Positions 3,940 through 33,153 of a DNA stretch of 46,514 nt are shown here, piece by piece; the first letter of the stretch is position 1; every line of letters begins with the position of its first letter. A program made the translations under genes and the position numbers. The notes beneath the pieces were generated by a model. That model was not told where the DNA came from. It saw only the letters and a program-made list of their open reading frames with translations, and made no database searches. Source of the DNA: a virus; IMG/VR virus record IMGVR_UViG_3300046751_000142, positions 1-46,514 of that record; one strand, written 5' to 3'.

Positions 3940-6900
3940 ATGTCGAAGAAAAGACAAACAAGAAATTCTAAAAAGTTTAAAAAGGCTGCTGCGTCTAAAA
4001 GAGCTAGATTAACTATGCGTACAGGTGGAAAAACCCAAAGAAGCCAGCAAGTAGTTAAGCCTGCACCCGTAAAAAATATGGGGCCGCGAAACATACCGGG
4101 TTCACCTATAATTAAACCTCTGCCCGTAAAAAATACTGGGCCACGAAACATCCCTAATCAGCCCGTAGTAACTCCTCGTATGCCTCCTGCTGGTCAAACT
4201 GATGGGATTAATCCTAATCCTATGAAAGACATTCCTCCTCGAACTACTGCTGGTCCTAAGCGTCCTCCTGATATAGGAACGCCTCGTCCTGAGCCAAGAC
4301 CTACTGGAGTGTCTGAGCGCCCAGATAATACAGAAGGTCAGTTGCCAGAGTTTACAGGCATTATTCCAAACCTAACAGAAACAGGAAGAATTTTTCAGCC
4401 TGATACACGAAGTCAATTGCCTACAGGCGATCCATCAATGGCGTTACCTCCTAGTGATGATGATGGTCAAGCCAAGCCTGCGCCGGGTAAAGGTTCTACA
4501 GAAACAGCGCGACGAGGAGGAAGGCAAGATGGTAACGACGGGGGTCGTCAAGACGAAGGAGGCACTACTACTCCGGGAATGGAATCAAACCTATCACAAG
4601 CCCCAATAGATCTTGAAATTAATCTTCCTGATCGTCCAGATTTGCCTCAGGTTACTCCTGAAGATGTAGCTTATGGTCCAGACTCTATGGTCTATGAGAT
4701 GGCTGATACAGGCGATGCAAGAGCTACTTCAGCACGGGCAACTACAGCACGAGCGCAAGCAGATGCAGAAGCTGCACAGGCTGCTGCGCCTCGACAAGTT
4801 CAAGCAGCACAAATGGAAGCTGCTATAGCTGAAGGCGTTGCTCCCGGAGAAGCCGCACGAGGTCAAGTAAGCGAAGAAGCTATTGCACGAGTCGATGAAG
4901 GCACTATTACTCAACCAGCTGTTGCAGCTGAAAGAGATGCGGCTGCAGAACAAGCTGCAAGAGCAATGGCAGCACAAAGGCCTGAGGCTCGTGATTATGC
5001 GGAAGCCGCTACAAGTGGAACTACTATTGAAGTAGAAGACATCGAAGGCCCAGCAGTTGTTACACGCGAAGGGGCTACAGTCTCAAAAGCTGAAGTAGAA
5101 CGTCTAGGTCAAATAGCTCAAGGACGTGGTGTAGATCTTCAAGAACTTCCAGAATATAAAGATGTAATTCAAAAGCGTATAGCTCAACAAGGCGAAGCAG
5201 TCACTGCTGAGTATCGCTCACGACTTGAAGAGGCTCCACAGGCTGAAGCAGCACAAGCAGAATTTATTGGTGCTGAAGATACGCCACAGGCTCGTCAACA
5301 ACGCATAGAACAGTTTGACTCTTTTGCTCCTGCAAAGCGTGAAGCATATACGGCTTTGGGCGTTGATGCTCCTGAAGCCGCACAGATGGAAGATGTTCGT
5401 AAAGCATCTGCTGCAAGTCGTGAGGCTATTACGGCTGATGCACCTCCTGAAGTTATTGCTGAACAAACAGATCTTGATCAGCTTGGCACATATCAGATGG
5501 CGGCAAGACGTACAGCACAAGTCGCTGAAGCCGCTGAAGGCATTGCTGCTCAACTAGGTGGTCAGCCTGCTATAGATCTTGAAGGCCGTCAAGCTATCCT
5601 TGGTGAAGCACCAGCGGGTGATGCAGCCCAGATTGGCGGTATTCCTACTGCACAAGCTGCACAGATGCAGGCTGTTACAGGTCAAGCACGTAAGATGGCT
5701 GCTGCAGACATGGCGACTGTTGTTGTTGAAATGCCTCCAGAAGTTACAGCTGCAATCTCAGAAGACCCTGCAACTGTTGAAGCCCAGCTTGATACTGGTG
5801 AAGATCCTCAAGTTGTGGCGGCTGTCGCAGCACTGCCAGAAGAAGCACTTGTATCTACACAGATGGAAGGCCTTCTTGCTGGTATGGAAGATGGCGAAGT
5901 TCCAATGTGGGCACGACCAGCTGTAGACGCAATCAACGCACAGATGGCCCAGAGAGGCCTTAGCACGTCTACTGTTGGACGAGATGCGCTGTTTAATGCA
6001 ATTATTCAAAGTGCGCTTCCAATGGCTCAGAGCAACGCTCAGGCCCTTCAGCAACGTGCTACGCAGAATCTAAGCAATCAACAGCAAGCAAACATAGAGC
6101 AGTCTAAGCAGATTGCTAGTGTTCGTATGCAGAATCTTGCTAACCGTCAAACTGCTGCATCTCAAACAGCACAGATGGCACAGCAGATCAAAGTACAACA
6201 GGGTGAGTTCCGCCAACAAGCACAGATACTGACAGCCCAACAAGAACAACAGGCTCGTATGACTGATGTTCAGTTCCAACAACAACAGGCACAACAAGAG
6301 TCAGCACAGAGACAACAAGCGGCTGTACAGAACTTGTCAGCTTCTCAGCAAATGGAGCTTGCAAACCTACAAGCCATTAACGCTTCTGCTACTCAAAACC
6401 TTAGCGCAGAACAACAAACACGTCTTGCGTCTTATCAGGCACAAGTCAATCGTACTATGCGTCAGGCTGAACTACAGCAGGACATGGATAAAGCAAATCT
6501 TAGCACAGCCCTTCAGGTTGAGTTAAAGAATCTGTCTGAGCAGAATTTAGCTGCTCGTGACACCATGACGGCTGAAAATCAAGAACGTCTGACTAACTTA
6601 CAGACTCTTGTAGACTTTAAGAAAACTAACGCGCAGTTAGCGCAGCAGATGGACTTAGCAAATTTATCAGCTGATCAACAAACACGTCTTGCTAATCTTG
6701 CTGAAAGATCTGCTACAGACTCTGCAAACTTTACAGAAGCTAATCGTTTTGAGTTGACTAGGCTTCAAACTGCTGCACAGGTGTTGTCGCAAAATACTCA
6801 ACTTCGTCAGCAGGCAGAGCTTGCTAATCTTAGCACAGAAGAAAAAATTACTCTTGCAAACTTGACTGCAGAAAATCAAGCGTCAGCCGACAACCTTAAT

Positions 6901-21172: not shown

Positions 21173-22026
21173 AAGATTTCTTCTACGCGAGGTTCTGACA
21201 CAACCTTCGTAAAGTACACAGGGCCACTAGCGTAAGCGAAAGACCGAAGACCTTGGCCGTCGTTAGCGTCTGCGTAGCATTCAAATTTATAAGGACAGTA
21301 TGAGCATCCTGAGGGTAATTTCATGTTGCCTTTTTTACCGTCAGAAATAGTATTATAACATCGATCTGGAGGTGTGTCAAGACTTAAAGCCTTACGAACG
21401 TCTTTAATTTTTTGTTCGATGTTAGGCTTCTCTAAATCTTCAGGCTGAAACAAGCACAACTCGCCGCTCTCTTTGTTGATAACAAGGAAGCCGCCGTTGT
21501 CTGTGTTCTCTGCAGCCTCGTAGCCAGCAAGCTGTGGTAGATAGCCGAAGGGATCGTTCTCAGCCAAAGAGCCATCGACAAATTTCTTAAATGAATAACG
21601 AGAAGCAGACTTGACATCGACTACTTGCCCATTAATCTTACAGTCCATGTGGCCTTTGATGCCTGATACACTAATTTCTTTTTGCTCTGATGAAACCTCG
21701 TGACCAGATAGTCGGACTAACATCAAAACAATTTCTTCGAGAATGTGTCCATAAAGAAACTTGATCTGTGTTGGCGCACTTATAACAGAAGGTTCGCTTA
21801 CATTTTTATTGTCATACCACAGCTGGCGAAGAGGCCGTCCCACGTTTGACATCCTTAACGTGAATTTTTTTGAGGACTCTCTAGGCTTAGACCAAGCCAA
21901 GATGCTTTCCTTCATACGCAACATAGTCTGATCTAGTTCTTCTTCATTTATCTCAAGGGCCTCTCCGTTGGAAAGACCTTCGAGCCTTGCATAGATATCT
22001 TGTACTACTGTATTTAAACTTTCCAT
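21169..22026 (-). CDS. PD-(D/E)XK exonuclease, Cas4/RecB-like, T7 gp6 substitute
   Basis: I favour the ATG at 22026 (MESLNTVVQD) over the listed start at 22050. Motifs are numbered from the longer form: GHILEE (E105), GIKGHMDCKI (D136) and QVVDVKSAS (D145, K147), the usual PD-(D/E)XK core. Later comes a DPFGYLPQLAGYE helix of the RecB/Cas4 type. Near the C-terminus GCSYCPYKFEC gives C-x2-C-x5-C as in Fe-S Cas4-like nucleases. A partner cysteine may be in PDRCYN. In T7-like phages gp6 exonuclease does end-processing and host DNA breakdown, and this gene probably fills that place. It overlaps the upstream nuclease by 13 nt. Confidence 0.85.
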   Translation of the reverse strand: MESLNTVVQDIYARLEGLSNGEALEINEEELDQTMLRMKESILAWSKPRESSKKFTLRMSNVGRPLRQLWYDNKNVSEPSVISAPTQIKFLYGHILEEIVLMLVRLSGHEVSSEQKEISVSGIKGHMDCKINGQVVDVKSASRYSFKKFVDGSLAENDPFGYLPQLAGYEAAENTDNGGFLVINKESGELCLFQPEDLEKPNIEQKIKDVRKALSLDTPPDRCYNTISDGKKGNMKLPSGCSYCPYKFECYADANDGQGLRSFAYASGPVYFTKVVSEPRVEEIL

Positions 22027-31405: not shown

Positions 31406-31846
31406 CTAACCCTCTATTTTTGCGATTCCGTAATCATATTTTCCGTTCATTTCGAATGCAGATCGGTAAGCTATCTTTCTCTTACCCGCTGTTTTTGCTG
31501 TCCAGTCGTGGAGCTTCCCATCAATTAAAACCGTGATGTGTCCCTTCACACATATAAACCATGTGCCTGTGGGGTGTGCCTTCACAAACTTATTAAGAGT
31601 AACGCCATTCCACTCACGACTAAAAACGACTGTCTTCCCTTCACTCTCTGCGGCATCGAGTAACGCTTTTGTGTATTGATCCCATTCCGGACCTCTGCGG
31701 TACTTCCTGCCATATTTCGTCATGTGCCTGTGTGCCTTGCCTGCGCTCCAATTGAACGCAACCGCTAGACTGACAACCGTACAAAAATTATTTTCTTTGT
31801 AGGCTTCGGTCATGACCTCGTGAACATTTTCGAAACTTTGTTGCAT
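31406..31846 (-). CDS. Putative papain-like cysteine protease-fold protein
   Basis: A 146-residue basic protein. NNFCTVVSLAVAFNWS places C22 at the start of a helix, as in papain-like folds. GTWFICVKGHITVLIDGKLHDW then gives H103 in a strand and D114 shortly after. This Cys, then His and Asp order fits a papain-like or transglutaminase-like catalytic triad. Similar small phage proteins with ...GTxxxxVxxHxxxxxDGxxxD are known to me only as hypothetical. Its early position, second from the control region, would suit a host-takeover protease. AAGG precedes the ATG. The enzymatic role is a hypothesis. Confidence 0.65.
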   Translation of the reverse strand: MQQSFENVHEVMTEAYKENNFCTVVSLAVAFNWSAGKAHRHMTKYGRKYRRGPEWDQYTKALLDAAESEGKTVVFSREWNGVTLNKFVKAHPTGTWFICVKGHITVLIDGKLHDWTAKTAGKRKIAYRSAFEMNGKYDYGIAKIEG

Positions 31847-31875
31847 GATTTAATTACCTTTTAAGCTGTCCACAA

Positions 31876-31897
31876 TAGCGCCCCGTGTGAGACGCTA
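31876..31897 (-). other. Hairpin between the first two early genes
   Basis: TAGCG and CGCTA (5-bp stem, 12-nt loop) lie in the 67-nt spacer between the first early gene and the papain-like gene. A strong ribosome-site-like AGGAGGT (31904-31910 read on the minus strand) lies just upstream and has no following ORF. The pair may be a processing or attenuation signal. Confidence 0.35.
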
Positions 31898-31913
31898 CAA
31901 TTGACCTCCTAAA

Positions 31914-32144
31914 CTATGTCGCGTTATTGATTTCGCTTAACTTGTTTAAAAGCATTTCTCTCTGACACTCGACAATAATCTCGTCGCATCGCTCCATGTC
32001 TCTGCGGATGTCATTTAAGAATCCATATGATTCGTTTGTACCGTCGAAATATTTCTCGATGTAGTTGGCTTCGTTGCGATGTAAATGCTTCAACTCGTTA
32101 ACTGACTGAATGATCATTGCGTTTAATTCTTGATATGTCATCAT
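31914..32144 (-). CDS. First leftward early gene, function unknown
   Basis: The start chosen is ATG 32144 (MMTYQELNAMIIQSVNELKH), preceded by GAGGG 6 nt upstream; a second ATG follows directly. A longer frame (to 32231) would use untranslated leader. The 76-residue product is a charged helical protein with two cysteines (RCDEIIVEC). It is nearest the leftward promoters and thus among the first made. No family was recognised. Confidence 0.65.
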   Translation of the reverse strand: MMTYQELNAMIIQSVNELKHLHRNEANYIEKYFDGTNESYGFLNDIRRDMERCDEIIVECQREMLLNKLSEINNAT

Positions 32145-32246
32145 GTTGTTACCCTCATAGTCTATTGCGTGTCGTTTGTAGATACTCACGAGCATATGAA
32201 TACCCACAAAAAACACGCCACAAACTCGCAAGCTTTCACAGTCTTT

Positions 32247-32289
32247 GGTGATCTTTTAAGATCGGATTGTCTGCCCGATCCCTATCACC
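32247..32289 (-). other. Nested stem-loop in the early leader
   Basis: GGTGAT/ATCACC (outer, 6 bp) encloses GATCGG/CCGATC (inner, 6 bp, 9-nt loop). GATCTT-TT-AAGATC on the left arm offers an alternative pairing that would compete with it. It is about 100 nt before the first early ATG in the predicted leader RNA. Mutually exclusive pairings are what an attenuator or regulatory leader would show, though no T-run follows. Confidence 0.45.
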
Positions 32290-32523
32290 ATTCGATACTT
32301 GCTTGCATCTGTGGCGTTAGCGCTTCCAGTACATCGTCTTTCGTTTCGATTAGTGCCTACCCTCGCACCTCACTTCCCCTAAGGTCCACCCGAAGATGAG
32401 ACAAGATACCTTGCCAAGTGAGGTCCAGCTTAGATAGTCTCGCACGTCATCTAGACTGCAAAACATCTGGCTAACAATTACCCGTCTGTTAGTGACGTTG
32501 GCTGTTAAAAGGTACTCAGTAAT

Positions 32524-32860
32524 CCTTTGAAGGGCATCCTTCGCTGGCCTTTCCCTGCCGGTTGATCTCTAAGCTATAGATGGCTTTTGAGCCTGTCAAC
32601 AACTTTTTTCAAATATTTTTCTGAAATGGGGTAAAAATGTGCTAAGTCTTTGAAATCCTTCGGAGAAAAAAATTTAAAAATAATTTTCAAAAGGCCTTTG
32701 AAGTCCTCTGAAACTTGTCCACCAGTCTCTGAAATCTTCGAAGGGCTTCAAAGATCTTTTGAGTTGATCACGTGTTTTTCAGCTGAGGGAGTTTGTGAAA
32801 TATTCACAGGCTATGAAGTCTTCACAAGGGCGTGAAAATGTGGTAGGGACTTTGAAGTGT
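32524..32860. repeat. Degenerate CTTTGAA repeats
   Basis: Sites sharing CTTTGAAGT or a near variant occur near 32525 (CTTTGAAGG), 32648 (CTTTGAAAT), 32696 (CTTTGAAGT), 32727 (CTCTGAAAT), 32746 (inverted CTTCAAAGA), 32811 (CTATGAAGT) and 32850 (CTTTGAAGT). Spacing is irregular, so they are not strict iterons. They flank the A/T-only tract at 32666-32687. They may bind a replication initiator or regulator. Confidence 0.5.
32573..32599 (-). promoter_or_regulatory. Secondary leftward promoter candidate
   Basis: On the minus strand TTGACA (32599-32594) is followed after 15 bp by TATAGC (32578-32573). The -35 is perfect, while the -10 and spacing are weak. It would give a leader of about 420 nt before the first early gene. 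Confidence 0.4.
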
Positions 32861-33049
32861 GGGGAGATTTGGAAGGGCTGTCGAGTCTTTGGAGAGGCGG
32901 GGCAGGAGGCCATACCCCCACCCGTATATATATACTCATGCTCGAACATTTTTAGAAGGTTTTGGAGTGTCTACCAGATAGGCGGACAGATCTTCCAAGA
33001 CCTAGGATTGTCGCCCCGATCTTCTAAGAGTCGCGGGGGATATATACAT

Positions 33050-33066
33050 GTACCTCTGCGGGGTAC
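33050..33066 (-). other. 5'-terminal hairpin of the leftward transcript
   Basis: GTACC and GGTAC form a 5-bp stem with a 7-nt loop. Its upstream edge falls where transcription from the perfect leftward promoter should begin (about 33066). A hairpin at the very 5' end can protect mRNA from decay. As DNA it could also serve as an operator. Confidence 0.45.
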
Positions 33067-33124: not shown

Positions 33125-33153
33125 TTGACAAGCCTCAGATATAGGTATATACT
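33125..33153 (+). promoter_or_regulatory. Rightward promoter of the packaging/structural unit
   Basis: TTGACA (33125-33130), 17 bp, TATACT (33148-33153), five of six matches at -10. A perfect TATAAT overlaps at 33153-33158 but at poor spacing (22 bp). The expected start, 7 nt past the -10, is the A of the terminase ATG at 33160, so the mRNA would be leaderless. Only 23 bp separate the two -35 boxes of this and the leftward promoter. Confidence 0.85.

Follow-up and report, generated by a model that had tools for sequence, protein, structure and literature searches.

What is carried by a stretch of about 920 nt that separates a perfect early promoter from the first early start codon, and in which no convincing open reading frame was found? 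The question is raised by a virus record of 46,514 bases, which was analysed as a whole and is referred to below as the window. DNA comparison matched the terminase DNA of the window at 68–76% to that of the HMO-2011-type pelagiphages HTVC103P, HTVC104P and HTVC115P, and its leftward early genes include those for PolA, a T7-like primase-helicase, a Cas4-like exonuclease and a class II ribonucleotide reductase (RNR); with its terminase DNA matches, PolA, the primase-helicase and the class II RNR, the window is a candidate HMO-2011-type phage as judged by these genes. On one side the leader borders the terminase small subunit gene (TerS, 33160), on the other the first early gene, whose ATG occupies positions 32147–32145 and has GAGGG as its ribosome-binding site; 80 TerS relatives were collected for comparison. 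A first-pass annotation had described the segment as a single long, structured leader of the first early gene. The gene-free stretch of ~920 nt behind the perfect promoter P1 is real, but it is not one leader: the single leader is replaced by a promoter block, an origin-like block and a separate RNA gene.

The promoter block begins with P1 (33073–33101, minus strand), a TTGACA-17-TATAAT sequence matching the consensus at 12/12 positions, which is kept in the relatives designated groups A and B and in remoter ones; a P1-like promoter is also found upstream of TerS in HTVC104P. The TerS gene has its own rightward promoter, TTGACA-17-TATACT (33125–33153, plus strand), and a leftward TTGACA-17-TATAAT occurs also at 21352–21380, within the Cas4-like exonuclease gene. 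The P1 transcript is predicted to begin with the hairpin GUACC/GGUAC (33050–33066, minus), already noticed in the first-pass annotation; an analogue with a different stem sequence is present at the transcription start site (TSS) of most relatives and missing in a few, and single cases rise only weakly above shuffles. It is followed by a conserved non-coding element, block E (32902–33002, minus), of the layout AAAATGT..TATATATA..G-run..GGCCNCCTGCC, which can be traced to relatives with TerS identity as low as 46%. Groups A and B retain block E together with P1 and the TSS hairpin; the G-run of block E is replaced by a C-run in two exceptions, L033 and HTVC104P. The TATATATA motif followed by a G5AG5-like run is kept in relatives with a divergent promoter layout. 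A reading of block E as a peptide (MFEHEYIY..) was dropped, the frame in L006–L008 stopping after four codons. By its sequence, block E resembles transcript-primed origin elements, and an origin or a packaging site are candidate functions. The ends of contigs near TerS, judged by eye, do not cluster and give no evidence for a cos site there.

The annotation had also called the leader structured, and here its two parts differ: the far part folds beyond chance, as described below, and the near part (32565–33066) folds no better than shuffles (z −1.31). The near part contains an origin-like cluster of CTTYRAAG palindromes beside an AT-rich stretch (32590–32930), with four palindromes found versus 0.07 expected and none of 1000 shuffles reaching that number; the cluster between block E and 32590 is taken as a putative origin-like element and not as RNA. 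The sign of the GC skew switches at ~32.5–33 kb. In group B (L011–L032), an intrinsic terminator, GGCCGGTGGGCC-U7, is located ~75 nt past the P1 TSS and would yield a 90-nt RNA or act as an attenuator; the window does not have it.

The far part of the leader almost certainly encodes a large structured RNA. The fold z-score of 32200–32564 is −4.03, a value reached by none of 100 shuffles, and the lowest-z fold windows among the 137 tested fall in this part (−6.8 and −4.4); the genome background, taken from 126 fold windows elsewhere, has a mean z of −0.5, a standard deviation of 1.2 and a minimum of −3.7. The longest open reading frame in any frame of the far part is 28–51 aa, the frame is not common to relatives, and 1-nt indels are frequent among the relatives. 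A second promoter, overlooked in the first-pass annotation, stands directly before this segment: P2 (TTGACA-17-TAGCTT, 32599–32571, minus), with 10 nt between the end of its −10 box and the conserved RNA core. This −10 box is weak (3/6), yet only four TTGACA-17-TANNNT sites, P2 included, exist in 46.5 kb (0.68 expected), and the TTGACAG of P2 is invariant among close relatives. Given P2, the far 400 nt form a unit of their own. Contig L009, which is 91% identical upstream, departs from the window right after P2 and carries a 94-aa gene and a relative of the RNA instead. With the 5′ end predicted from P2 and the 3′ end placed at the base of the terminal hairpin, the structured non-coding RNA comprises ~405 nt (32160–32564, minus), and both inner stems listed in the first-pass annotation fall within it.

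Counting from the 5′ end, the RNA (all elements on the minus strand) contains a hairpin CTAACA/TGTTAG (32471–32492) with a conserved loop ACGGGUAA; a covarying peripheral domain (32367–32424) composed of a closing helix, a GGCAAG/CUUGUC hairpin and a CAUC/GGUG hairpin; a 3′ domain (32216–32316) of helices b, c and d with the apical loop GCAGACAAU (32266–32274); and a long 3′ hairpin m (32167–32218), which bears a GGGYAU motif in its 5′ arm and ends ~20 nt ahead of the next start codon. Helix b (CGCCACA/UGUGGCG) pairs 32310–32316 with 32216–32222, and helix d, the best-supported part of the fold, pairs 32284–32290 with 32246–32252; the nested stem noted earlier at 32247–32289 corresponds to helix d with its apical hairpin. 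The CTAACA/TGTTAG stem, also noted earlier, covaries in relatives: it is CTGACA/TGTCAG in L002, L006 and L008, passes through a G-U intermediate in L003 and is rewritten as CCAAUG/CAUUGG in L136. In L002 and L008 the whole peripheral domain has been swapped for a different one, the core being unchanged. Helix b together with a U-run was considered as a terminator and dropped, since the family has a long 3′ hairpin at this place; the U-run (32208–32213) lies inside the stem of that hairpin and thus does not form a terminator tail.

In an alignment of the eight close members, seven of them distinct, base pairs are kept by compensatory change: the CUAACA stem exchanges A-U for G-C, the peripheral domain has two doubly changed pairs in its closing helix and one in the GGCAAG hairpin, and helix c runs through G-C, G-U and A-U. 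The named structure is paired in 97% of the cells in the seven sequences, with six double-changed pairs versus a shuffle mean of 2.8 and 0–1 with slid partners; one of the six counts only through the two sequences whose peripheral domain has been swapped, and all of the set are closely related. RNAalifold applied to this alignment alone gave one double-changed pair, and the structure read by hand is better supported. Because the close set consists of closely related sequences and one pair comes from a replaced domain, the weight is placed on the wider family.

The wider family was reached through the RNA itself. Covariance models were built for the 3′ and 5′ halves, and the 3′ model gave a weak match in L009 (E = 0.02 over 739 kb, 7.5e-05 in L009 alone), where an identical 13-mer, GGGCAGACAAUCC, occupies the same hairpin as in the window. 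An 18-mer of the apical motif taken from L009 matched 20 viral contigs versus ~1 expected by chance; 19 of the 20 are homologous non-coding regions, including L147 (L009's own contig) and a truncated copy in L145, and the match in L134 is coding and was set aside as chance. Since such a scan misses any member in which this motif varies, the family is probably larger. The RNAs of ~18 other viral contigs have in common with the window the loop GCAGACAAU, the nested helices and the long 3′ hairpin, and L136 joins both types of RNA, its 5′ half matching the window model with an E-value of 9e-11 while the hairpin stem is rewritten. The clearest evidence comes from helix d (7 bp), in which 89 of 91 cells pair among the 13 distinct of 19 sequences, with at least three pair types at every position; when the 3′ strands were dealt among the sequences, the mean was 59 and the maximum 78 in 2000 trials. 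Helix d was picked by eye, which is a favourable bias, yet the stems of separate groups have almost no letters in common. Wherever the 3′ hairpin was read, it has at least 18 bp, its 5′ arm carries GGGYAU or a near match to it, and its stem sequences are unrelated between groups; L009 has a different RNA 3′ end. Boxes resembling a −10 element end 9–10 nt before the RNA core in the window, L136, L137, L138 and L139; the promoter scores upstream of the relatives' RNAs are not above shuffles by themselves, and only the constant spacing counts. The earlier suggestion of a small RNA gains support, with an RNA larger and more widespread than was proposed.

This RNA is a member of a family without earlier description, present in many uncultivated phages. 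Searches of Rfam 15 with curated and lax thresholds (E up to 10) returned only chance-like matches for the window RNA, with no covariance-model match to GOLLD, ROOL, OLE or any other family, and the relatives' RNAs that were scanned had no Rfam match. A distant DNA search of 50,697 GenBank phage records gave no match to the window RNA or to four relatives, DNA comparison with cultured phages did not turn up the RNA either, and exact-pattern scans of bacterial genomes yielded none, or two chance matches; a literature search, mostly outside subscription journals, found no description of such a pair of RNA and protein, which is a weak negative. A group I intron was rejected: no Rfam intron model matched, the genes behind the RNA are intact, and transcription of the RNA would begin at a promoter. 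No CUGANGA..GAAA core candidate for a hammerhead ribozyme exists in the window leader. Directly before the RNA relative of L009 (920–970, minus) there is a hammerhead-like sequence, ACCUA CUGAUGA GCCUG..CAGGC GAAAC GCUC..GAGC GUC UAGGU, scoring 24 bits with Rfam Hammerhead_3, below threshold; early intergenic regions of distant relatives contain minimal motifs of hammerhead type in which the third stem is very short (L043:3895–3925, L045:2245–2275, L047:3807–3837 and L048:3906–3936, minus). Another distant relative, L044, has at the same locus a GC-rich non-coding segment of ~710 nt (4630–5340, minus; z −3.75) without Rfam match or relatives found, perhaps another large RNA.

The gene that accompanies the RNA family encodes a protein of 146 aa in the window, papain/C39-like by predicted fold (31406–31846, minus; phrog_3754). 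The same protein family is encoded downstream of the RNA in 26 of 26 distinct contigs with enough sequence; many of these contigs are closely related, so that independent cases are fewer, and the group A phages, which were found via TerS, have a common ancestry and were counted as a single case. Since it was the RNA motif, and not the protein, that led to the wider family, the link between RNA and protein is not built in. Among the other TerS relatives, the peptidase-like family was seen in L046 only. In the window, L003, L006 and L010 another gene stands between the RNA and the protein gene, both of which are still kept; in the window it is an early gene of 77 aa (31914–32147, minus), missing in L002 and L005. 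An intergenic hairpin TAGCGTCTCACACGGGGCGCTA (31860–31915) is common to the same four sequences, located between different genes. The residues C22, H103 and D114 are invariant in 12 partner-protein sequences and follow the papain order Cys-His-Asp. The structure model (pLDDT 84) gave staphopain and Josephin as the best Foldseek rows, none with E below 0.07; VIA-align placed a C39 domain first (6mpz, Z 8.5, 111 residues, 3.0 Å), which borders the tool's specific range, and its top rows were mostly papain-like. The predicted fold comes closest to papain-like proteases. Homologues in Pseudomonas phages are annotated in part as 'peptidase'.

Whether the RNA functions as its own molecule together with the peptidase-like protein seems, from sequence comparison, evenly poised. 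The fold kept by compensatory change, the promoter-like box at a fixed distance and the protein gene always found downstream speak for a module of this kind, as does the exchange after P2 in L009. Against it counts the lack of a terminator at the 3′ end of the RNA in the window, by which transcription probably continues into the protein gene, as from a 5′ leader. The main rival is a cis-acting leader: as a large 5′ untranslated region, the RNA would govern how the peptidase-like mRNA is translated or decays, for instance by a switch in which helix b and an extended 3′ hairpin compete for shared bases; we consider both the leader and such a switch possible, though somewhat doubtful. It would fit that the RNA stops 10–30 nt before the next start codon in most members, that no terminator separates it from the next gene, and that, among the members that were folded, the 3′ hairpin can be lengthened at the expense of helix b by taking over its 3′ strand. 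However, in four members, including the window, the next gene is a different one, the start codon of L009 is ~100 nt further off, and at ~405 nt, with its core at a constant distance from a promoter, the RNA would make a large leader.

A replication-linked RNA beside an origin, serving as a primer precursor or in copy control, is improbable. Two to four perfect DnaA boxes occur upstream of the RNA in L129, L131, L133, L137, L140 and L148, and the four in L137, 490–560 nt upstream of the motif, suggest a possible replication origin beside the module; the palindrome cluster with the AT-rich stretch and the change of skew sign in the window point the same way. The window leader, however, has no DnaA box, the skew also tracks divergent transcription, and the strict link of the RNA is to the peptidase-like gene. 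The annotation had further offered an attenuator or antitermination element driven by P1, and for this phage that proposal found no support: there are no terminator-like sites in the leader (1.3 expected by chance) and no intrinsic terminator between promoter and gene, the U-run being part of a hairpin stem. The group B terminator and the deep conservation of the promoter-proximal block would agree with it, and attenuation may take place in group B relatives; the far module, with a promoter of its own, also occurs in phages whose upstream regions differ, which makes this explanation very improbable here.

Among known systems, type III toxin–antitoxin loci (ToxIN, CptIN) combine, in a single operon, an RNA gene and a protein gene that directly follows it. 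The order of RNA and protein gene is similar here, but those systems pair a tandem-repeat RNA with an RNase, whereas the RNA of the window has a single complex fold and its partner is papain-like by predicted fold; with only two chance-like 12-nt repeat pairs in the window, this class was rejected. In Pakpunavirus phages K8 and phiMK, a homologous protein gene lies one small gene behind ~440 nt of non-coding DNA, but this gap has no GCAGACAAU motif and a fold z of only −1.9; the occurrence of the protein behind a motif-free gap in Pseudomonas phages counts against the module. The HMO-2011-type phages (PMC9038755) resemble the window in their terminase DNA (HTVC103P, HTVC104P, HTVC115P) and in the P1-like promoter of HTVC104P, and differ in that the cultured phages have no RNA copy by DNA comparison. 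GOLLD and ROOL are large ornate phage RNAs of ~660 and over 800 nt, often located at tRNA islands (PMC12286853). They are, like the present RNA, large, structured and non-coding; the RNA of the window is shorter (~405 nt), has another sequence, no tRNA and no Rfam match, and possesses a partner protein gene.

The preferred reading, an early two-part module of structured RNA and peptidase-like protein that moves between phages, is at present in the balance. In such a module P2 would drive early transcription of the RNA, probably supplemented by read-through from P1, and the RNA would be released as its own molecule with its 3′ end at the long hairpin, or cut there; acting in trans early in infection, it may bind or control the peptidase-like protein, as an RNA–protein particle or an RNA-controlled enzyme directed against the host. 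Rather tentatively, the pair may represent a phage system of a new kind, an RNA–protein effector of early infection in which a papain-like peptidase is the obligate partner of a large structured RNA, and which travels as a cassette between marine phages. Few large structured RNAs are known from phages, and the conserved protein partner found here gives direct access to function, which GOLLD and ROOL do not offer; being compact, the module could also be expressed in laboratory strains.
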